From a virus, in IMG/VR virus record IMGVR_UViG_3300008114_000262, positions 1 through 27,709 of that record: a DNA stretch of 27,709 nt. The stretch is one strand, 5' to 3'. The position numbers and the translations under genes are program-made. The notes under the pieces were generated by a model, which worked only from the letters and a program-made list of their open reading frames with translations, was not told where the DNA came from and made no database searches. Positions 1,017 to 27,709 of this stretch are shown here, piece after piece; the first letter of the stretch is position 1; every line of letters starts with the position of its first letter.

Positions 1017-1297
1017 GTACAAAAGACATAAAACTAAAGATTATAGCAGCAGGACATAAAGCTGTAGAAGAATTAATTAAAGTCGCTGAGGACTCTATAT
1101 TGGACCCAAATAGCGAAGGAGATGATTTAGCTGCTGACAAGCTAAAAAATGCAGCAGCAACAAAGAAATTAGCGATATTCGATGCATTTGAAATTCTAAA
1201 TAGAATTGAAGCTGAAAAGGAAAGCATTGAGTTATCTGAAAAAGGTGGAAGTCGAACTGATACAAGACAAGGTTTTGCAGAAAGAAGGTCAAGATAA
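1013..1297 (+). CDS. terS: Terminase small subunit (putative)
   Basis: A 94-aa, highly charged, largely helical protein directly upstream of the large terminase, where a DNA-recognition subunit is expected. The middle (about 18-70) looks like two or three long amphipathic helices rich in Ala, Lys, Glu and Asp, such as KLKNAAATKKLAIFDAFEIL. The end GFAERRSR is a basic tail of a kind I associate with small terminase-like proteins of flavobacterial phages. ATG 1013 overlaps the preceding stop (ATGA). The 3' end overlaps the large terminase frame by about 50 bases. No helix-turn-helix is obvious, so the call rests on position, size and charge pattern; a generic small packaging protein is the alternative. 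Confidence 0.6.
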   Translation: MSTKDIKLKIIAAGHKAVEELIKVAEDSILDPNSEGDDLAADKLKNAAATKKLAIFDAFEILNRIEAEKESIELSEKGGSRTDTRQGFAERRSR

Positions 1298-3521
1298 ATT
1301 ATATACTGTAGTCAATGACTATATTGCTAAAGGAGTTATTTCTAATAAAAATAGAAATAGGTCTTGGGCGTATGGCTATAATGACCAATATGATGTTGTA
1401 GTAATATCAAAGACAGGTCAAATTGGAGACATTATTAATATATCAGGTCTTCATATTGCTATACCACCTGCTCCTGAAAAGTGTTTTCAAACAAGTTCAA
1501 GTAAAGCTGAACAATATTGGGAAAGACAACCGATACCTAAACCTTTAGAAAAAATACAATCTATATTCCAATGGAATGAAATGCCATCTGATTTTAAAAA
1601 TAGATGGGTTGATTATATTGAACAAGAGTTTGATTATAGAGAGCAAGGATATTGGTTTATGAATAATGGAGTTAAAACATATATAACCGGCTCTCATTAT
1701 ATGTACTTACAATGGTCAAGTATTGATGTTGGTTATCCTGACTTCCGTGAAGCTAATAGAATCTATTGGTTGTTTTGGGAAGCTTGTAAAGCAGATGAGC
1801 GTAGTTTTGGTATGATATACCTTAAAATTAGACGTTCAGGATTCTCTTTTATGTCTTCGTCTGAGGCTGTAAATATAGGAACACTTGCTAAAGATTCAAG
1901 GATTGGTATTTTGTCTAAGACAGGAGCCGATGCTAAAAAAATGTTTACAGATAAGGTTGTTCCTATAAATAGTAGACTTCCTTTCTTCTTTAAACCAATT
2001 ATGGATGGTATGGATAAACCTAAGACAGAGTTAGCATTTAGGGTTCCTGCATCTAAGATTACAAAGAAGAATATGTATGAATCTGATGCTGAAATAATTG
2101 AAGGATTAGATACATCAATAGATTGGAAGAATACAGAAGATAACTCTTATGACGGGGAAAAACTTCTATTTTTAGCTCACGATGAGAGCGGTAAGTGGAC
2201 TAAACCAAATAATATTAAAGAGAATTGGCGAGTAACTAAAACGTGTCTTCGATTAGGGTCTAAAATCATTGGTAAGTGTATGATGGGTTCAACGTCAAAT
2301 GCTTTATCAAAAGGAGGTCAGAACTATAAAGATATGTATGAGGATTCTAATGTATTAGTTAGAAATGCCAACGGCCAAACTAAATCAGGATTGTATTCTT
2401 TATTTATTCCTATGGAATGGAATATGGAGGGATTCATAGATAAATATGGTATGCCTATTTTCTATAAACCTGTTGAACCTATAAAAGGTGTAGATGGTTC
2501 TTGGATTAAGAATGGTGCTGTTGATTATTGGGAAGCAGAGGTTGACTCTTTGAAAAATGATGCTGATGCGTTAAATGAGTTCTATCGTCAGTTTCCAAGA
2601 ACAGAGTCTCACGCATTTAGGGATGAAAGTAAGCAGTCTTTGTTTAACCTTACAAAGATATACCAACAAATAGATTATAATGACTCTCTTATAAAAGAGC
2701 ATTATATTACAAGAGGTTCTTTTCATTGGCAGGATGGTATTAAAGATACTAAAGTTCTTTTTACTCCCGACAATAAAGGAAGATTCTTAGTTAGTTGGAC
2801 TCCTGCAAAACACTTGCAAAATAATGTACATATACGAAATGGAGTTAAATATCCGGGGAATGAACATATAGGGTCTTTTGGATGTGACTCTTATGATATA
2901 TCAGCAGTAGTTGGTGGTAGAGGTTCTAATGGTTCTCTTCACGGACTTACTAAATTCAATATGGATGATGCACCTTCCAATGAGTTTTTCTTGGAGTATA
3001 TAGCAAGGCCTCAGACAGCTGAGATATTTTTCGAAGAAGTTCTTATGGCTTGTGTATTCTATGGTATGCCTATTTTAATTGAGAACAATAAACCTCGATT
3101 ACTATACCATTTTAAAAATAGAGGATATAGAGGGTTTTCACTAAATAGACCTGATAAACAATATAATAAATTAACAAAAACAGAACGAGAACTTGGAGGA
3201 ATACCTAACTCTTCTGAAGATGTTAAACAATCTCACGCTTCTGCGATTGAGTCTTACATCGAGAAACATATAGGTTTTGATATGGCAGGGAATTATAGAG
3301 ACCCTGACCAAATAGGCAATATGCCTTTTACGAGAACATTAGAAGATTGGGCTAAGTTTGATATAAACGATAGAACAAAATTTGATGCTTCTATTAGTTC
3401 AGGATTAGCTATTATGGCTAACCAAAAGCATTTATATATTCCTGAGAAAAAAGATTCAAAAATTATTATTAACTTCGCAAGGTATTCTAATGATGGTTCA
3501 ACAAGTCAATTAATTAAATGA
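1245..3521 (+). CDS. terL: Terminase large subunit (packaging ATPase and nuclease)
   Basis: The packaging motor: it hydrolyses ATP to translocate DNA through the portal and cuts concatemers. Counting from GTG 1245 (758 aa), a degenerate Walker A-like loop is at 192-207 (YLKIRRSGFSFMSSSE). Walker B is at about 307-314, LLFLAHDE with D313 and E314. The coupling motif GSTSN is at 348-352. The RNase H-like nuclease domain has D548 and D551 in GCDSYD, E613 in LIENN, and D709/D714 in NDRTKFDASI. The frame has no ATG until about residue 113, well inside conserved sequence. A TTG at 1206 would add 13 residues, but GTG 1245 gives a start resembling the usual xVELIQDK N-terminus and follows the A/G-rich stretch GAAAAAG. 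It overlaps the small subunit, and its stop overlaps the portal start (ATGA at 3518-3521). Confidence 0.93.
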   Translation: MEVELIQDKVLQKEGQDKLYTVVNDYIAKGVISNKNRNRSWAYGYNDQYDVVVISKTGQIGDIINISGLHIAIPPAPEKCFQTSSSKAEQYWERQPIPKPLEKIQSIFQWNEMPSDFKNRWVDYIEQEFDYREQGYWFMNNGVKTYITGSHYMYLQWSSIDVGYPDFREANRIYWLFWEACKADERSFGMIYLKIRRSGFSFMSSSEAVNIGTLAKDSRIGILSKTGADAKKMFTDKVVPINSRLPFFFKPIMDGMDKPKTELAFRVPASKITKKNMYESDAEIIEGLDTSIDWKNTEDNSYDGEKLLFLAHDESGKWTKPNNIKENWRVTKTCLRLGSKIIGKCMMGSTSNALSKGGQNYKDMYEDSNVLVRNANGQTKSGLYSLFIPMEWNMEGFIDKYGMPIFYKPVEPIKGVDGSWIKNGAVDYWEAEVDSLKNDADALNEFYRQFPRTESHAFRDESKQSLFNLTKIYQQIDYNDSLIKEHYITRGSFHWQDGIKDTKVLFTPDNKGRFLVSWTPAKHLQNNVHIRNGVKYPGNEHIGSFGCDSYDISAVVGGRGSNGSLHGLTKFNMDDAPSNEFFLEYIARPQTAEIFFEEVLMACVFYGMPILIENNKPRLLYHFKNRGYRGFSLNRPDKQYNKLTKTERELGGIPNSSEDVKQSHASAIESYIEKHIGFDMAGNYRDPDQIGNMPFTRTLEDWAKFDINDRTKFDASISSGLAIMANQKHLYIPEKKDSKIIINFARYSNDGSTSQLIK

Positions 3522-5953
3522 AAAATATAACAATAGATATTACATCGTCAGTATTTCCAAGTCAGTTAGCTACTGATGCGGAAAAAGCGTCTCCTCAATT
3601 TGGTCTACAAGTTGGTCAAGCTATTCAGTACGAATGGTTCAGAAAAGACGGAAATAATTGTAGATATTATAGCCAATGGAGAGAATTTAATAGGTTAAGA
3701 CTCTATGCGAGAGGAGAACAGCCTATTGCTAAATACAAGAATGAATTAGCTATTGATGGAGATTTATCCTATCTAAATTTAGATTGGACTCCTGTTCCAA
3801 TTATTTCTAAATTTGTTGATATTGTTGTAAACGGTATGTCGGATAGATTGTTTAAAGTTAAGGCATACGCACAAGATGCAATGTCTCAAGCTAAGAGAAG
3901 CAAGTATCAAGAAATGATGGAGTCTCAAGTAGCAGGTAAACAAATCTTATCTCAAATAAAAGAACTTTCAGGAGTTGACCCTTTTGTTATGGACCCTGAT
4001 AAACTTCCTAATAGTGATGAAGAATTAGCATTATATATGCAGCTTAACTATAAGCCTGCTATTGAGATAGCTGAAGAGGAAGCTATCAATACAATGTTTG
4101 ACGAAAACCATTATGATAACATTAGAAAGAGACTTGATTATGACGCTACTGTAATTGGTATTGGAATAGCTAAGCACGAATTTCTTCAAGGTTCAGGTGT
4201 ACAAATTTCTTATGTTGACCCTGCTAATGTTGTTTACTCTTACACAGAAGACCCTTACTTTAGAGATTGTTTCTATTGGGGAGAAATCAAAACGCTTCCT
4301 ATTACGGAGTTAATGAAGATAGACCCTACTCTAACAAAAGAAGACCTTCAAGAAATTACACAATACAGTCAACAATGGTACGATTATTATAATGTTGCTC
4401 AATTTTATGAGAATAGTGTATTCTCAAGAGATACAGCTACATTAATGTATTTCAATTATAAAACTACGAAAAAAATTGTTTACAAGAAAAAAATTCTTGA
4501 TAGCGGAGTTACTCGTATGATTGAGAAAGATGATACTTTCAACCCTCCTACAGAAATGATGGAAGAAGGTAATTTCGAAAAGATTGAAAAAACAATTGAT
4601 GTTTGGTACGAAGGAGTTATGGTTATGGGAACCAATATTCTTTTGAAGTGGGAATTATCTAAAAATATGGTAAGACCAAAATCTGCATCTCAACACGCAA
4701 TACCAAATTATGTTGCTGCGGCACCTCGTATGTATAAAGGAGTAATTGAGTCTTTAGTAAGAAGAATGATTCCTTTTGCAGACCTTATCCAAATAACACA
4801 TTTAAAACTACAACAAGTAATCAATAGAACAGTTCCTGATGGGGTATTTATTGATGCTGATGGTTTAAATGAAGTTGACTTAGGTACAGGAGCGGCATAC
4901 AATCCTGAAGACGCATTAAGATTATACTTTCAAACAGGTTCTGTTATTGGTCGTAGTTATACTCAAGATGGAGACTTTAATAACGCAAGAGTTCCTATTA
5001 CTCAGTTGACTTCTAATTCAGGTGCTTCTAAAACGCAAATGCTTTTAGCTAATTATAATCATTATATGGATATGATTAGAGCTGTAACCGGATTAAATGA
5101 AGCAAGAGATGGTTCTACTCCTGACCCTAACTCTTTAGTTGGTGTTCAGAAGTTAGCAGCATTAAATTCAAATACAGCTACAAGACACATATTAGAAGGA
5201 AGTTTATTTATTTACAGAACATTAGCTGAGGCTTTAACTTATAGAATTGCAGATATATTAGAATACTCTGATTTCAAAGAAGATTTTATTAATAAGATAG
5301 GAAGATTTAATGTTTCTATTTTAAATGATATTAAAGAACTTTATATTTATGATTTTGGTATTTTTATTGAGGTTTCTCCTGATGAAGAACAAAAAGCTCA
5401 ACTTGAGGCTAATATCCAAATGGCATTGTCTAAAGGAGATATTAATCTTGAAGATGCAATTGATATTCGTGAAATTAAAAACCTTAAACTTGCGAACCAA
5501 TTATTGAAACTTAAGAGAGTTAAGAAACAAGAGCGTGAAGAGCAAATGAAGATGCAGCAACAAGCTATGACTGCTCAACAACAATTGAAGTCTCAAGAGA
5601 TGGCAGGCCAAATAGCAGCGGAGAAAATGCAAATAGAACTTCAAACAAAAATGCAGTTAAAACAAGCTGAAATTGCTTTTGACATACAGTTATTAGAAAG
5701 AGAAGCTCAAATGAAATCTGACCTTATGGCTCAAGAGTTTAGCTATAATCAGCAATTAAAAGGTATTGAAATTGAAACACTTAGTGCTCGTGAAAAAGAA
5801 AAAGAAGATGCTAAATCTAAAAGAATAAGTCAACAAAATACAGAGCAATCAAAGTTAATAAATCAACGTAAAAACAACCTACCTCCGTTGAATTTTGAAT
5901 CAAATGAGGATAGCTTAGATGGGTTCGACTTAGGAGAATTTGAGCCTCGATAA
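3518..5953 (+). CDS. Portal protein
   Basis: An 811-aa protein at the position expected for the portal, the dodecameric ring at the capsid vertex through which DNA enters and leaves. The core (about 30-650) is mixed alpha/beta. It includes the YVDPANVVYSYTEDPYFRD segment (about 230-250), a long helical part around MIPFADLIQITHLKLQQVIN, and the MIRAVTGLNEARDG segment (about 517-530), a pattern I know from portals of this group. From about 660 to 790 the protein becomes a Gln/Lys/Glu-rich coiled coil, likely the barrel helices, and it ends in an acidic tail (DSLDGFDLGEFEPR). Its length matches the large portals of crAss-like and related podoviruses. It is translationally coupled to the terminase. 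Confidence 0.88.
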   Translation: MKNITIDITSSVFPSQLATDAEKASPQFGLQVGQAIQYEWFRKDGNNCRYYSQWREFNRLRLYARGEQPIAKYKNELAIDGDLSYLNLDWTPVPIISKFVDIVVNGMSDRLFKVKAYAQDAMSQAKRSKYQEMMESQVAGKQILSQIKELSGVDPFVMDPDKLPNSDEELALYMQLNYKPAIEIAEEEAINTMFDENHYDNIRKRLDYDATVIGIGIAKHEFLQGSGVQISYVDPANVVYSYTEDPYFRDCFYWGEIKTLPITELMKIDPTLTKEDLQEITQYSQQWYDYYNVAQFYENSVFSRDTATLMYFNYKTTKKIVYKKKILDSGVTRMIEKDDTFNPPTEMMEEGNFEKIEKTIDVWYEGVMVMGTNILLKWELSKNMVRPKSASQHAIPNYVAAAPRMYKGVIESLVRRMIPFADLIQITHLKLQQVINRTVPDGVFIDADGLNEVDLGTGAAYNPEDALRLYFQTGSVIGRSYTQDGDFNNARVPITQLTSNSGASKTQMLLANYNHYMDMIRAVTGLNEARDGSTPDPNSLVGVQKLAALNSNTATRHILEGSLFIYRTLAEALTYRIADILEYSDFKEDFINKIGRFNVSILNDIKELYIYDFGIFIEVSPDEEQKAQLEANIQMALSKGDINLEDAIDIREIKNLKLANQLLKLKRVKKQEREEQMKMQQQAMTAQQQLKSQEMAGQIAAEKMQIELQTKMQLKQAEIAFDIQLLEREAQMKSDLMAQEFSYNQQLKGIEIETLSAREKEKEDAKSKRISQQNTEQSKLINQRKNNLPPLNFESNEDSLDGFDLGEFEPR

Positions 5954-20704: not shown

Positions 20705-23700
20705 ATGGATGAAGAAGTAATCAACGACCTATATTCAAGAGCAAAATCAAAAGGGTATCAAAAAAACAGAGATGAATTTGTAAAACTTTTACATAGTGAT
20801 TCTGAAGTTTTAAATGATATGTATTCTTATGTAAAAAGCAAAGGATATAAGAAAGATATAAATTCTTTTAATTCTCTTATAGGAAAGAACGAAGCTCCTA
20901 CTCAAAAAAAAAAATTCGCTTCGGAATTATCTTCGGTGGATGGTTCATTGGAATCGCCAAGGTCTATTAAACCATTTTCAGATATGCCTACTCTTGACCA
21001 ACAAGGTCTTGAGGAGGCTATGGCTAAAAGGCAATCTGTACCTACAGATATGTCAGGCAAGCCTATTTTACCTAAGCCATCAAAGGAAACTGAAAAATCT
21101 CTAAATAGAATTAAAAAAGAAAATGAGGCTCTTCAATCTGAAAGAAAAAAATATGAAAATGTTTTTGACAAGCAATTAACTATAAAGCCAAAAGTAGAAG
21201 AAAGTCAATATTTAAAAGATAGACTGTCTACTGTTGATACTGAATTAATTAATAAAACAGAAGAGTTTGTTGTTCCTGAATTAGAATATCAATTTGGAGA
21301 TTTAGGATTTAAATTTGAAGAATCAGGAGCTTTAGGAGATTACGTGAAAGTAACAGCTCCTAATGGTCAAATTAAAGAAATTTCTTTAGATAATTTATTT
21401 AGTAGTAAATCAAAAGTTCAATCTGAAATTTTAAAACAATTCATAAAAGATAATACTCCTGCTAAGGGGCTTTTCGTGCTTGAAAAAACTATGAGAGAAC
21501 AGGATAAAAAATTCAATTCTCAAAAACAAGTAGATGAATCTATTAAAGGAATTACTGATGATGTAAATGCTCTTAATTCTAAACAAAAAGAATTTATAAT
21601 TAAGAAGACTCAATTTGATAAAGAATTAAAAAAATTAGGGCCAAATGCTACTAAAGAACAATTAGAATTATTAGAGCAACAAAAAATATCTTTAAATGAT
21701 GAAATGAAATCATTACTTAAAGAAGAAGATAGAATAAAGCAAAAAAGTGGTAAATTATCAAGTGCTGTAGGTAAATACACAATTAATAAATCAAAACAAG
21801 GAGATTGGGTTGGAGGACTTAGAAATGCATTTTTAGGTGGTATTGGAAAATTGTCATCAAGTGCTACAAGTTTAATGACTGATATAGCAGGAGAGGTAAA
21901 TCCTATAGTAGAAGATGGCTCTTTTTTAAGTACGTTTGTTCCTGCTTTGTTTTCTAATGAAGAAGCAACAAAATATGCTTTAGAGGGTGCTGAGAAGTTG
22001 GGGTTTGGAAAGCCAAAAGATAATAGTCAAGAGAGTATAAATAAATTTAAGCAATCTTTAACTGAAAATCAATTAGATGAAATAGAAAGCTACATTAGAG
22101 ACAAAGCAAAAAAGAATGTAAAAAAGGAAATGCTTCCTTTAATGAGAATTGGAACAAAAGAAATTTTTGGAGACCCTGAAACTACTCAGCAGTGGGAAAA
22201 TATTAAAAAACAAGATTTTTGGGGTGGAGCTATATTAGGATTAGCTGAATCAGCACCTGCTATGATTGGTGGTGCAGGACCTGCGGGTTGGGCTCAAAGA
22301 ACTGCTCAAATGTATGCTCAAGTTTCTGATGGTTTAGCTGAGGAAATGGAGAAAAATCCTGAGTTTAAAGATGTAACCGAAAATGAAAAATTAGCTATTA
22401 CTCTTCCAATAGGTATTACAGGTGCAATATTAGAAGAATTTGGTTTAAGAAATATTAAAGGAAGTCAAGGACTTATAAATAGTTTAACCTTAAAAGCTTT
22501 AGGTAAAGCAGGTAAAGGTGTTACAGCTAAAACATTCAGAGAATTAGTTGAGAATGAAGTTGAAAGTGCTATAGCAAGAGGTGCTCTTACTATTACGGCA
22601 GCAGGTGCTGCTGAGTTTGAAACAGGAGCTGCTCAGGAATTATCAGATACATCATTCAAAGCACTGTACAATGAGATAAAAGGTAAAAAAATGTTTGACA
22701 CTCCTGAATCTGTTCAGGACTTATTAGAAAATGTAGCAGTTGCCGGAGCTCAAGAAGCTGTTGGTGGTTTTGTTTTAGGTGTACCTACAGGAGTAAGTGC
22801 TGCTTATTCTGAAAAAGGATTTTTAAAAATGGATGATGTTACATTTGAAACATTTGCTAATATGGCAAATGATGATAAAATGCAAAGCGCATTCATTGCA
22901 AGTCTAAAAGATAAAATAAGCCAAGGGATAATAACTACTGCTGAAGGAAAGGAACAACTAAATAATTATAGAAATTCAGTTGGATTGTTTAGACAATTAC
23001 CTGATGGATTAAATACACGGCAGAAAAAAGAAGCTATGAATCTTTTAAAAGAAAAGAAAGATTTAGAGAACTATGTAAATGGTAAAGACCCTGCTTTAGT
23101 TGTAAAACAAAAAAATAGAATTGCAGAGATAAATGATTCATTAACTAAATTAACAGAAGAAGATGCCATTCAAGAGCAAAGCACAACAGAGATTCCTGTT
23201 CAGTCAGAAACCGGAGTTAGCGAAGAAGTGGAGGGAAGAACACCCGAAGCAGAACCTGAAATCGTTACCGAACAGGTTACGCAAGAAGAAGTAGTTGAAG
23301 AGCCAACAATAAAAGATAGTCAAATACCTTTAAAGAGAGAAACTTATGAGGTTTTAAATGATAATGGAGATATAATTACTGTAAAAGTAACTATAAATAA
23401 AGATGGAAGCAGAAATATAAGACAAGAAATTGATGGAGATTTTGCCGGAGAGGAAAGAGTTGGCAAAGACGTTACACTATCAAATGAAGAGTACGTAACA
23501 AAAGCTTATGGTGATATACAGGGCGAGCCTAAAACGCAATCAATGGAAGAAATTATGAATCCTAAGATGAAAGAAAAACTAACTCCTCAACAAAAATCTG
23601 AATTAGGTATTGAAGGCGAAGTAACCGCACCGCAAACTATCATCAAGGAGCCTACTATTGTGGTTCACGCTACAGCAGATGAAAGAGGATTTGCTTTAAA

Positions 23701-25153
23701 TTATTTTGAAGGAATTGATAAAACGAATATAACTACACCTGAAGACCCAAGAGGCTTTACTCGAAATTCAACTCCTGAGCAAAGAAAAGAATTTGGTAAA
23801 GGAAACGCTGTAATTACGGTAAACGAAATATCTGAAAATGGAGATAAAAATATTTCTTTTGTATCTGAAATAGAAGAAATTGGCGGTAGAGCAGGAGGTA
23901 CTGTATTTGATTTTGTGGTACCTAACGGTAGTAATGCTACCGCTGAAGGAATAAAAGATATTTACGATAAATTAAGAAAAGATTTAAAAGGAGAAAAACT
24001 TATTAATGAGACTGTAAAACAAGTTAAAGAATATATAAAGTCTTCAAGAACACAACCAACAAATCAAACACAAGAAAATGAAACAGAACAACAACCAACA
24101 GTACAACCCGAACCAACCGGAGACAGAGGAAGACGGACTGATAGCAGGGAAATTGCGCCTCTTGAAGGCACGCCAACAATTCAAGGAGCTACAGGGCCGG
24201 ACCCACAACTTGTTGCCGTTGCCGAACAATATGCAGCAGACAATGGAATCGACCTCAAACGACAATCAGAATATGTAGAAGTAGATGAGGAAAGAGCTCA
24301 ACGTATAGCACAGGCTTACGAAGAAATGGCTCACGACCCTCAGAACCCAAAAGTAAAAGAAGCATACGCTGAACTTATTAAACAAACAATAGCTCAATAT
24401 CAAGCATTAGTTGATGCAGGATATAAGTTTTGGTTTATGGATTTGAACATACCAAGTAATGTTGAGTATGCAGAAAGTCCGTATAATGCTATGCGTGATT
24501 TACGTCAAAACAAAGAAATGGGAGTATTCCCTACTACTGATGGTTTCGGCACAAGCGAACTTGATGTAAACGATAATCCATTATTAGCTGAAACAGGATT
24601 CGAATGGCCTGTCGGAGGACTTGATGGAGAAATGAAACCTGTACTTGCAAATGATTTATTCAGAGCTGTTCACGATGCTTTCGGTCACGGATTAGAAGGC
24701 TCAGGGTTTAGAGCAAGAGGAGAAGAGAATGCTTGGCAAGCTCACATAAGATTGTTTACAGGACCTGCTAAAGGAGCTATAACAAGTGAGACAAGAGGTC
24801 AAAACTCTTGGCTTAACTATGGACCTGAAGGAGAGAACAATAGAGCAGCTAAAGTAGAAGATACTATTTTTGCTGACCAAAAAACAGGACTTATGCCTGA
24901 GTGGACTTGGATAGAAGGGCTTGCAGGAGATGTGGAGGCTGAAGCTCAAGTTGCTGAAAACTTATCCCAAGAATTATCTGAGACTGATTTACCGGGCTAC
25001 GATAGAACTATGGCTGAGGTTGAAGGTATTGTTCAGAAATCAAAACAAAGAAAGGTTAGTGAGCCTAAGATATTTGATAACGTAATGAATTATGTTATGG
25101 GTTCAAAAAAAAGGCGCAAGAGAATCAATACAAGCTTGGAAGAATCAAACTAA
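20705..25153 (+). CDS. Giant ejection protein, N-terminal 1482 aa (frame broken at an A8 tract)
   Basis: Probably the largest ejection protein, entering the cell with the DNA. Residues 4-63 are two tandem 30-residue repeats (EVINDLYSRAKSKGY and EVLNDMYSYVKSKGY). Helical, coiled-coil sequence follows to about 350. Small-residue hydrophobic stretches occur at about 505-530 (ILGLAESAPAMIGGAGPAG), 563-578 (LPIGITGAILEEFGL) and 674-700 (VAVAGAQEAVGGFVLGV), as in membrane-penetrating proteins. E/Q/T/P-rich linkers separate further domains. Residues about 1166-1420 hold a conserved phage domain with VHDAFGHG (H1323, H1328), RGEENAW (E1340, E1341) and TRGQNSWLNYGP, then EWTWIEG. The last residues (KKRRKRINTSLEESN) look out of frame. 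Removing one A from the tract at 25105-25112 would join this frame to the open frame that runs to the window end, so the natural product may be much longer. Confidence 0.8.
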   Translation: MDEEVINDLYSRAKSKGYQKNRDEFVKLLHSDSEVLNDMYSYVKSKGYKKDINSFNSLIGKNEAPTQKKKFASELSSVDGSLESPRSIKPFSDMPTLDQQGLEEAMAKRQSVPTDMSGKPILPKPSKETEKSLNRIKKENEALQSERKKYENVFDKQLTIKPKVEESQYLKDRLSTVDTELINKTEEFVVPELEYQFGDLGFKFEESGALGDYVKVTAPNGQIKEISLDNLFSSKSKVQSEILKQFIKDNTPAKGLFVLEKTMREQDKKFNSQKQVDESIKGITDDVNALNSKQKEFIIKKTQFDKELKKLGPNATKEQLELLEQQKISLNDEMKSLLKEEDRIKQKSGKLSSAVGKYTINKSKQGDWVGGLRNAFLGGIGKLSSSATSLMTDIAGEVNPIVEDGSFLSTFVPALFSNEEATKYALEGAEKLGFGKPKDNSQESINKFKQSLTENQLDEIESYIRDKAKKNVKKEMLPLMRIGTKEIFGDPETTQQWENIKKQDFWGGAILGLAESAPAMIGGAGPAGWAQRTAQMYAQVSDGLAEEMEKNPEFKDVTENEKLAITLPIGITGAILEEFGLRNIKGSQGLINSLTLKALGKAGKGVTAKTFRELVENEVESAIARGALTITAAGAAEFETGAAQELSDTSFKALYNEIKGKKMFDTPESVQDLLENVAVAGAQEAVGGFVLGVPTGVSAAYSEKGFLKMDDVTFETFANMANDDKMQSAFIASLKDKISQGIITTAEGKEQLNNYRNSVGLFRQLPDGLNTRQKKEAMNLLKEKKDLENYVNGKDPALVVKQKNRIAEINDSLTKLTEEDAIQEQSTTEIPVQSETGVSEEVEGRTPEAEPEIVTEQVTQEEVVEEPTIKDSQIPLKRETYEVLNDNGDIITVKVTINKDGSRNIRQEIDGDFAGEERVGKDVTLSNEEYVTKAYGDIQGEPKTQSMEEIMNPKMKEKLTPQQKSELGIEGEVTAPQTIIKEPTIVVHATADERGFALNYFEGIDKTNITTPEDPRGFTRNSTPEQRKEFGKGNAVITVNEISENGDKNISFVSEIEEIGGRAGGTVFDFVVPNGSNATAEGIKDIYDKLRKDLKGEKLINETVKQVKEYIKSSRTQPTNQTQENETEQQPTVQPEPTGDRGRRTDSREIAPLEGTPTIQGATGPDPQLVAVAEQYAADNGIDLKRQSEYVEVDEERAQRIAQAYEEMAHDPQNPKVKEAYAELIKQTIAQYQALVDAGYKFWFMDLNIPSNVEYAESPYNAMRDLRQNKEMGVFPTTDGFGTSELDVNDNPLLAETGFEWPVGGLDGEMKPVLANDLFRAVHDAFGHGLEGSGFRARGEENAWQAHIRLFTGPAKGAITSETRGQNSWLNYGPEGENNRAAKVEDTIFADQKTGLMPEWTWIEGLAGDVEAEAQVAENLSQELSETDLPGYDRTMAEVEGIVQKSKQRKVSEPKIFDNVMNYVMGSKKRRKRINTSLEESN
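20714..20893 (+). repeat. Two tandem 30-codon repeats at the N-terminus of the giant protein
   Basis: Residues 4-33 and 34-63 align with a period of exactly 30, sharing EV-ND-YS, KSKGY-K and F-LL/SLI positions. The DNA copies have diverged, so this is an old or selected protein-level repeat rather than a recent duplication. Confidence 0.8.
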
Positions 25154-27709
25154 AGAATTAACTAAAGAACTTAATGATTTAGTTAAGTCAGGTAAAATAA
25201 CTGCAAGACAAAGTGGTATTATCCTTAATAAGTTTGGAAAGGTAAATATATTCAGCGAAAAGTCGGTAGGTAGATTTACTGATTATATGGTAAAAGTATT
25301 TAATGATGCTGACTATAAAAACAAATTATCTAATGCAAGAAAAACATTATCTTCATTAAAGAAATTATCTAAAGACCAAACTAAGAATGCTGACCTTAGA
25401 GCATTAGCTTCTGAGTTTGTAAAAATAGACCCGTCTTTCGTAGATAATATCGATGAGTATAATGATATTGCAAATAAATTAAAAACAGCAGTAGATGGCT
25501 CTAAAATTAGAAAAGCCAATACTAAATTTGCAGAAACAGTAAATGCTCAGGATGTAATATCTTATGTAGAGAAAATACTTGTAGACCAAGAACAAAAAAT
25601 CAAACAAGAAAAGATTCAAGAGATACAAGACCTATTAGGTGTAGACGCTTCTGAGTTTAGTGCAGAAGAGATTGATACTTTGTTGGAATCAGATAAAGAT
25701 ATTTCTAAAGACGATGAGAAAATAGTAAGAGCTACAATTAAAAAAGCATTTGATATTTACTCAACTGTAATAAAAGAAATGTTGAACACAGGTGTCGACC
25801 CATTCACAGAAGAAGATATTACTTTTACTAAAGAACAAAAAAACCTTATTGAAAGGTTTATGAAAATAGACCCTGATAAGATTACAGATGCAAAAGAAGC
25901 ATTGAGAACTGTTGACTCTCTTATAAATTTCATACAGAATAAATCAACAGCAGGAATGTTAAAATCAATTGCTCAGTATGAGGGGATAGAAGGAGGAGAG
26001 CAAGTTGTTAGTGAAGGATTAAAAGCAACAAGACTTAGAAAATATTTTAGTACAAGATTGGGATTAGGTCTCGGAGAGCAAGTTACATCGCTACCTGTAT
26101 TGTTTGATAAAATGTTCAAAGGAGTTACAAGAGCATTAAGAGTTGAAGAGCTTATAGGTATGTCTGATTTAATTAATAATAGCTCTAAAAAAGAATCTGA
26201 ATCTAATAGAATAGTTAAAGAGTATGTAAATAAATTCTACAAAACAAAAGCAAACGGAGAGTCTTTTAATTCTGCGTACAATGATATTGAACGAGGGGTA
26301 TTTGCTCATATTTTTAGAAATGTAATTGGACCTGAATCAAGAATGAAAGAAGTTTTCAATAAAAGAAAACAAGAAGCTTTAGATGCTATTGAGTTATTAT
26401 CTAAAAGAGGAAATGATTCAGAAAAAGAAATAGCTCAACTTTTACAAAAAGTATATGATAAAATATTAGATGGTTCTGAAAATATTCAAGATGTTATTGG
26501 TAAAACTGATGCTAACAATGTAAAAGCTGTTGAGCATTGGGTAAAAGAATGGTCTAATAAATACGACTCATTAGCTGATTTGGCTCTTAACTTCTACAAT
26601 AAAGTATTAGGTAGAGACTTAAACTATACTCCTGATAAAATTAAAAAGCTTCAGGATAAAATGCAGGATATTGATTTAGAAGATATACAATCTCAATTCT
26701 TTGCTAATACTGACGAAATTTTATATGATAAAAAATCAGGAAGTTTAATGGATAAGCAAGAGAATAGAAGTATACCTAAAGATATGTATGTAGATTTCTC
26801 ATTTGATAAGAAGAATGCAAATGCTATGAGCGATGCTTTGGCTGATTTATATACTGCATTTGATGTAGCTAAAGTGGGTTCATTCCTTAAATCTAAAGAA
26901 TTTAGAAAGGTATTTCCATCAGCTAAAGATGCAAATCTTATAGATAAAAGAATAAAAAAATTCGTTAGATTAACAAGAAAGAAAACTCCTTTTTCTAATC
27001 AAGATATATCTAACCTTTTAAAAGCAGCAAATAAATTAGCTAAGCTTGGTGTTGCAGCATCATTAGCATCTCCTGCTCAGCCATTTAAACAAACCATACC
27101 GGTTATGTTTAGTACTGCTATGAGTGCGGGTAATGTAGGTCTTGGTATAGCATTTAATAAAAACTTCAATAATTGGCTTGATAATTTAGGATTAGCTATA
27201 TCAAATAGAGGTGTTGAGGCTCAGGCTGAGATAGAGTCGTTAAATAAATTATTAGAGAAAGCAGCAGATATGCCACTTGATAAAGCTTTAAAATTTATAG
27301 AAAGAACAAACGATAAAGCATTGAAAGTATTGTTGGTTAACTTTGATGTTTGGATTGCAAGAGCTTCATTTAAAGCTTATTACGAACAGTCATTAAAGAA
27401 ACAAGGATTACAATCAAGTGGTATAGATTATAGTACCCACGAAGTGAATAAACAGGCTGCTAATTATGCTCAAAGGATGGTAGATAGACAACAAAATATA
27501 TCTAACCCTGAATTAGCCGGAGATTTATTTACAACCGAAGATGCTGCAAAAAAAGCATTTGTTAAAATGCTTATGCCTTTCTCAAGTTTTAGAACGAATC
27601 AATCTGCAAGACTTGGAGCTGACTTAAGTACATTAGAATATTGGAATACTTCTACAAAAGAAGATAAAGTTATTGCTCTAAGGTCTATAGCAGGATATGT
27701 ATTAGAAGC
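25092..27709 (+). CDS. Continuation of the giant ejection protein, 3' partial (or separate overlapping gene)
   Basis: An open frame, one base ahead of the upstream gene's phase, runs without a stop to the window edge (over 850 codons). The protein sense resumes right after the A8 tract with GARESIQAWKNQTKEL and continues helical. If it is a separate gene, the only close start is ATG 25092 (MLWVQKK), just after an in-frame TGA at 25086, which would give a 62-base overlap. I favour one gene with a frame break. It is a long, charged helical protein. From about 27046 it shows a small-residue segment (LGVAASLASPAQPFKQ ... VGLGIAF), then LLVNFDVWIARASFKAYYEQ, YAQRMVDRQQN, and MLMPFSSFRTNQSARLGADL. 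I know this order from very large internal proteins of phages, including polyvalent-type proteins. No catalytic motif could be identified. Confidence 0.75.
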   Translation, partial: MLWVQKKGARESIQAWKNQTKELTKELNDLVKSGKITARQSGIILNKFGKVNIFSEKSVGRFTDYMVKVFNDADYKNKLSNARKTLSSLKKLSKDQTKNADLRALASEFVKIDPSFVDNIDEYNDIANKLKTAVDGSKIRKANTKFAETVNAQDVISYVEKILVDQEQKIKQEKIQEIQDLLGVDASEFSAEEIDTLLESDKDISKDDEKIVRATIKKAFDIYSTVIKEMLNTGVDPFTEEDITFTKEQKNLIERFMKIDPDKITDAKEALRTVDSLINFIQNKSTAGMLKSIAQYEGIEGGEQVVSEGLKATRLRKYFSTRLGLGLGEQVTSLPVLFDKMFKGVTRALRVEELIGMSDLINNSSKKESESNRIVKEYVNKFYKTKANGESFNSAYNDIERGVFAHIFRNVIGPESRMKEVFNKRKQEALDAIELLSKRGNDSEKEIAQLLQKVYDKILDGSENIQDVIGKTDANNVKAVEHWVKEWSNKYDSLADLALNFYNKVLGRDLNYTPDKIKKLQDKMQDIDLEDIQSQFFANTDEILYDKKSGSLMDKQENRSIPKDMYVDFSFDKKNANAMSDALADLYTAFDVAKVGSFLKSKEFRKVFPSAKDANLIDKRIKKFVRLTRKKTPFSNQDISNLLKAANKLAKLGVAASLASPAQPFKQTIPVMFSTAMSAGNVGLGIAFNKNFNNWLDNLGLAISNRGVEAQAEIESLNKLLEKAADMPLDKALKFIERTNDKALKVLLVNFDVWIARASFKAYYEQSLKKQGLQSSGIDYSTHEVNKQAANYAQRMVDRQQNISNPELAGDLFTTEDAAKKAFVKMLMPFSSFRTNQSARLGADLSTLEYWNTSTKEDKVIALRSIAGYVLE
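25105..25112 (+). other. A8 tract at the reading-frame break
   Basis: Eight consecutive A. The upstream frame reads TCA AAA AAA AGG and stops 39 bases on; the downstream frame reads AAA GGC GCA AGA and stays open. Seven A would make the two continuous (SKKGARESIQ). The shift is +1 (or -2), not the common -1 slip. Confidence 0.85.

Follow-up and report, generated by a model that had tools for sequence, protein, structure and literature searches.

A candidate metal-dependent enzyme domain carried by phage polyvalent proteins and early genes

The locus and its giant gene

The stretch of DNA analysed here (the window, 27.7 kb) is a phage fragment that encodes a terminase (1206-3521), a portal protein (3518-5953) and further virion structural proteins, with a GroES-like co-chaperonin gene (PHROG_13932, 453-1016) just ahead of the terminase gene. 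Located in the block of virion genes, among those for head and packaging, is a plus-strand ORF (20705-25153) that encodes the N-terminal 1482 residues of a giant phage protein and carries the domain discussed below. The protein continues in another frame in the next plus-strand ORF (25092-27707), which is still open at the window end and supplies the C-terminal part; in blastp its product is 48% identical over 880 residues to the relative L002, right behind the domain region. L002 is a single protein of 2733 residues that spans both window ORFs with its frame intact. The break in the window lies close to an A-rich run inside the overlap of the two ORFs (25092-25153), and could stem from misassembly or mark a recoding site (a programmed frameshift); intact copies exist. 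Judging from the position of its gene, the giant protein would presumably either be delivered into the host along with the DNA or be made soon afterwards; as an ejection protein it is at most putative.

Searches with ORF 20705-25153 returned no Pfam or NCBIfam family, and its sole family match is PHROG_3170, a Mycobacterium phage gp99-type family of unknown function (match to P0001 at 2e-12). An earlier note, made from the sequence of the window, had placed the domain in phage proteins of unknown function, and PHROG_3170 is indeed where it was known so far. The domain-family profile finds Mycobacterium phage Alice gp99 with an E value of 4.2e-31, and PHROG_3170 holds the same domain, with the common core FRAVHDxFGH...GE..A...H...ET.GQ. 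The mycobacteriophage version is a stand-alone protein of 433 residues, whereas in the window the domain is built into a giant protein as one of its modules. Literature searches for DUF7178, DUF3293, the motif and the PHROG numbers were without a hit.

A conserved domain with a candidate metal site

The domain comprises residues 1151-1408 (24155-24928, plus strand), which both AlphaFold and the conservation profile delimit as one folded unit; the model of these 258 residues, made with 106 relatives, has a pLDDT of 95.6 and a pTM of 0.92. The compact, conserved domain that the earlier note had seen inside the giant protein is thus borne out by the model and by 144 relatives, although its real extent is slightly more N-terminal than the 1166-1420 proposed there. 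The ORF reads ANDLFRAVH1323-D-A-F-G-H1328-GLEGSGFRARG-E1340-E1341-NAWQAH1347...TSE1362-TRGQ1366-N1367-SWLNYGP...EWTWIEG (codons of H1323 and H1328 at 24671 and 24686), and its translation has H1323-D-A-F-G-H1328, E1340/E1341 and H1347 where that note had put them.

All of the conserved motifs are on the plus strand. N1316-D-L-F-R-A-V-H1323-D1324-A-F-G-H1328 (24650-24688) forms the first of three helices that would build the metal site (P0001 165-179) and bears H1323/H1328. It is followed by G1339-E1340-E1341-N-A-W-Q-A-H1347 (24719-24745) on the second helix (P0001 186-198), where E1340 is the glutamate of an HDxxGH-x11-E pattern and is accompanied by H1347. E1362-T-R-G-Q1366-N1367-S (24788-24808), which is apparent from conservation and from the alignment with a minimal family described below, lies on the third helix (P0001 205-222), which bears E1362/Q1366, and contributes a second conserved acid and the Q/N pair. 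A conserved C-terminal segment, A1390-D-Q1392-K1393...P1398 (24872-24898), corresponds to FP-DQ in the minimal family. From the order of these three consecutive predicted helices, the candidate ligands would be expected to cluster in space.

In 144 of 144 non-redundant relatives, N1316, R1320, H1323, D1324, H1328, H1347 and Y1255 are invariant, as are E1362, T1363, Q1366, N1367 and K1393. E1340 is present in 143 of the 144 and Q1392 in 141, compared with just 122 for E1341. The HDxxGH-x11-E pattern is found in 182 of 185 relatives, and the full pattern, HD...H-x11-E-x6-H...E-x2-GQ, in 175 of 185. Judged from these alignments, the conservation of the HDxFGH region is far from chance, and E1362 is a better candidate than E1341 for the second acid. 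The earlier note had suggested a possible metal site, to be checked by the invariance of H1323, H1328 and E1340/E1341 in homologues; H1323, H1328 and E1340 are invariant or nearly so, and the H, D, H and E are kept in most members of the minimal family, which supports the site as a candidate. Its choice of E1340/E1341 as acids holds for E1340 but not for the more variable E1341, and although it had cited part of the stretch from E1362 to N1367, it had counted neither the E-T-R-G-Q-N motif nor the invariant glutamate E1362 within it among the site residues.

A module of polyvalent proteins

Coverage among the 185 relatives is about 98% for the domain and 1-12% for most other parts of the window ORF, indicating that the domain moves as a module under strong purifying selection, while the protein as a whole is not conserved. 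Scanning IMG/VR with a pattern of the domain gave 306 confirmed relatives, and scanning it with a broader alignment gave at least 600 viral stretches, all confirmed. The domain thus resides in at least 600 viral stretches within otherwise unrelated giant proteins; it is also present on plasmids, in mycobacteriophages and in a small number of bacteria (1 of 369 Gammaproteobacteria). The first 80 loci are 65-90% identical over about 260 residues and mostly lie in proteins of 900-4300 residues; a genome scan added 21 loci, many within giant prophage-like ORFs. Relatives contain ART-PolyVal or DUF7178, or are annotated as large polyvalent proteins. The domain-bearing protein is polyvalent in the phage sense, in that its modules are swapped between otherwise unrelated multidomain proteins. 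In this it resembles the polyvalent proteins described for phages and for conjugative elements (PMC5512222), which are likewise giant and multidomain with exchangeable modules. As points of difference, the domain is fitted by no Pfam model, and the terms looked for in PMC5512222 did not lead to it.

A frequent companion is DUF7178, present in 21 of the 50 phage records counted, all of them domain-bearing, and mostly within the same giant ORF; it may be just another common module of polyvalent proteins. It is fused to the domain in Acidipila (L102) and adjoins the domain gene in the phages Alice (Mycobacterium) and Skog (Gordonia). DUF7178 (PF23802) has invariant WY, SP..N, K..F..N and T.D motifs, and the places where it accompanies the domain include L022, L102, L082 gp98 and L229 gp165. 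Its likeness to an HhH DNA glycosylase was seen by eye, and this identity was dropped when a PDB sequence search gave no support. One giant ORF (L101) also holds a DUF3293-like sequence.

A minimal version encoded by early genes

A cut-down relative was reached through Xanthomonas phage DoCa2 gp6 (148 residues), which is the entry point to a minimal family in Autographiviridae that includes LKA1 ORF7, phi15 ORF2, Caulobacter phage Percy gp6 and BL199 gp6, Bordetella phage BB8 p03, Friunavirus IME-200 and others. Its members are mostly PHROG_7806, have about 150-200 residues and are encoded in the early region of T7-like phages. Compared as profiles, the minimal and main families match with a probability of 95.4, an E value of 1.7e-8 and a score of 59.5, the shuffles reaching 22.8 at most. 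PHROG_7806 and the domain have in common the core N..FR..HD..H-x11-E...[D/E]xxGQ...F.DQ; PHROG_7806 is half the size and lacks most of the N-terminal half, H1347 and, mostly, the extra glycine before the second histidine. Most members keep H-D-x-x-H-x11-E and [D/E]-x-x-G-Q. The loss of H1347, together with the absence of the x11-E spacing in IME-200, makes the exact ligand set uncertain.

With the minimal protein as query, a pattern-based scan of viruses gave no match; tblastn in a phage collection did find relatives. An early protein of an Acinetobacter phage (Friunavirus; L232:2887-3483), itself a member of PHROG_7131, can be aligned with the minimal family (match to PHROG_7806 at 0.0034) but has a different spacing after HDxxH.

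Comparison with known enzymes

Searches of Pfam, NCBIfam, PDB sequences and PDB folds gave no match for the domain. Foldseek with two confident models of the domain returned zero matches in the PDB, a miss that is not in itself proof, and VIA-align on Foldseek candidates gave nothing at Z>=2. The first model found 21 viral relatives in BFVD at E<=0.001, which indicates that the search itself works. The fold is thus unrecognisable in solved structures, which falls short of proving it new.

The earlier note had likened the site to that of aromatic amino acid hydroxylases (PF00351), and the domain could accordingly be imagined as a divergent hydroxylase fold with a 2-His-1-Glu iron site made of H1323, H1328 and E1362, which the alignment offers as HxxxxH + Glu candidates invariant in all 144 relatives. 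Its HDxFGH is identical to the consensus of the bacterial hydroxylases collected by Biopterin_H; these read EPDxFHDxFGH, with the glutamate two helices on, in TVEFG, and the succession helix-strand-helix-strand-HDxFGH helix-helix-Glu helix looks the same when the two are compared by eye. The domain family scores 34.2 against the hydroxylase profile (Prob 32), above the column-shuffle maximum of 23.6, but masking the six motif columns lowers the score to 12.5, under the shuffle mean of 15. A masked score at noise level indicates that the resemblance is confined to the hexapeptide. Biopterin_H has no match in the window at E<=10, the minimal family fails to align its own motif to hydroxylases, and Foldseek found no hydroxylase in the PDB, which contains structures of these enzymes. 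The glutamate of the domain lies 34 residues past the second histidine, versus 40-41 in hydroxylases. Both the profile search against this iron-enzyme family and the fold comparison proposed by the earlier note therefore ended without a relative, homology to the hydroxylases was rejected as a likeness of motif, and a hydroxylase fold appears quite improbable.

The spacing of the motif fits another protein better. In the ubiquinone-biosynthesis protein COQ4 (PF05019), HDxxH-x11-E is a conserved divalent-metal motif, and the homologue Alr8543 ligates Mg by D and E of it (PMC9774615). Most of the minimal family has this spacing exactly, and the main family differs by one extra glycine (HDxxGH-x11-E, in 182 of 185), so that the sequence is closer to the COQ4 motif than to the hydroxylase site, as a match of motif only. 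By analogy, the site probably works like a COQ4-type His/Asp/Glu metal site. That the domain also has the fold of COQ4 is a bolder proposal: the minimal family does align to COQ4 with the two motifs matched column for column (E value 8e-4; score 30.5, compared with at most 20.9 in shuffles), whereas the main family scores 21.9, below its shuffle maximum of 24.7, Foldseek did not match the COQ4 structure, Pfam gave no COQ4 match, and the ETRGQN motif was not found in COQ4. With the likeness confined to the motif, COQ4 homology was set aside, and a COQ4-like fold is about as improbable as a hydroxylase one.

The HD dyad and the RelA/SpoT annotation of a relative in Synechococcus phage MinM2 could be taken to suggest an HD-type phosphohydrolase (SpoT/dGTPase-like). 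This annotation spans the entire large protein, however, no HD-family Pfam model matches, and the conserved upstream histidine and downstream aspartate of the H...HD...D pattern are absent; rejected for want of profile support, this is by far the least probable of the readings considered.

Genome context in bacteria and plasmids

In Enterovibrio (L100, 6784-9120), a divergent S-adenosylhomocysteine hydrolase (SAHH)-like gene is followed by the domain gene and a DUF3293 gene, all overlapping. L255 has the same gene order with the genes separate, and in the BD1-7 clade (L103, 6669-9140, and L104) the same SAHH-like gene lies upstream of a domain that is fused to DUF3293. The divergent upstream protein matches S-inosyl-homocysteine hydrolase (PDB 7r3a) at 2.2e-10, and the BD1-7 copy matches AdoHcyase_NAD at 4.9e-11. 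A different order is found in genome G942, where a divergent domain protein of 243 residues is followed by a homocysteine S-methyltransferase (5dml, 8.5e-27), a methyltransferase-like gene assigned by eye, and a canonical SAHH (8.8e-148). The small bacterial operons that combine the domain with SAHH-family, homocysteine S-methyltransferase and DUF3293 genes comprise L100:6784-9120, L103:6669-9140 and L263:3694-7595. In our estimate, which is not a computed test, chance is an unlikely explanation for the same enzyme family lying beside a rare gene in two independent arrangements. The SAHH/homocysteine link consists of these two chromosomal arrangements, and the rarity of the bacterial form limits a wider operon survey.

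On actinobacterial plasmids, the domain is the C-terminus of proteins of 410-470 residues, and on plasmid pYJNG its gene lies three genes before an ArdC-like gene. The N-terminal half of the plasmid proteins is conserved (L227:5332-5946, L228:5161-5745, L261:2311-2925). An S-AdoMet lyase domain in this position is retained as no more than a lead, the weak Pfam matches (0.0015 and 0.25) being below cut-off and a PDB profile search unsupportive.

These contexts also bear on a non-catalytic reading, in which the His/Glu cluster, stabilised by metal or by hydrogen bonds, would be a piece of the fold that holds the giant protein in place within the virion or tunnel. Such a structural module would suit a gene located among head and packaging genes and a domain with no known enzyme relative. 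It sits poorly with the stand-alone versions in early genes, on plasmids and in bacterial operons, which lack virion genes, and with invariant residues that are polar and not merely hydrophobic. We regard it as unlikely, if somewhat less so than a hydroxylase or COQ4 fold.

Proposed function

The reading that we prefer, at a probability of roughly 0.55, is that phage polyvalent proteins and early genes harbour an enzyme domain that depends on a metal, with metal binding and catalysis suggested by the conserved residues. This domain would be a self-contained, mobile unit that probably binds divalent metal, drawing its ligands from three consecutive helices: H1323/D1324/H1328 from the first, E1340 and perhaps H1347 from the second, and E1362 from the third. 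H1323, D1324, H1328, E1340 and E1362 could form a site for one or two divalent metal ions, at which Q1366/N1367 and R1364 may position substrate or water. The giant polyvalent protein, whose gene lies together with the virion genes, would be brought in with the DNA or made soon after, and the domain would act at the start of infection, inside the host cell; T7-like phages encode a shortened form of the domain among their early genes.

The gene neighbourhoods offer a lead to the substrate, which might tentatively be sought within S-adenosylmethionine/S-adenosylhomocysteine/homocysteine chemistry. If it were SAM or SAH, a role in anti-restriction or methylation control would fit. The early SAM lyase of phage T3 is the known parallel for such an anti-restriction role. 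More speculative still is the full form of this proposal, a metalloenzyme with a new fold, whose substrate would be SAM, SAH or a product of these and which, delivered in polyvalent proteins or made from a very early gene, disarms SAM-dependent restriction or DNA methylation in functional parallel to the T3 enzyme.

For phage biology, the domain is a module of hundreds of giant phage proteins that has had no assigned function and no Pfam model, and that resembles no PDB structure in a recognisable way. The named residues, the small minimal versions, which are easy to express, and the operons with SAHH and homocysteine methyltransferase genes now allow a specific proposal of enzymatic function, which names both a candidate metal site and a candidate class of substrate.
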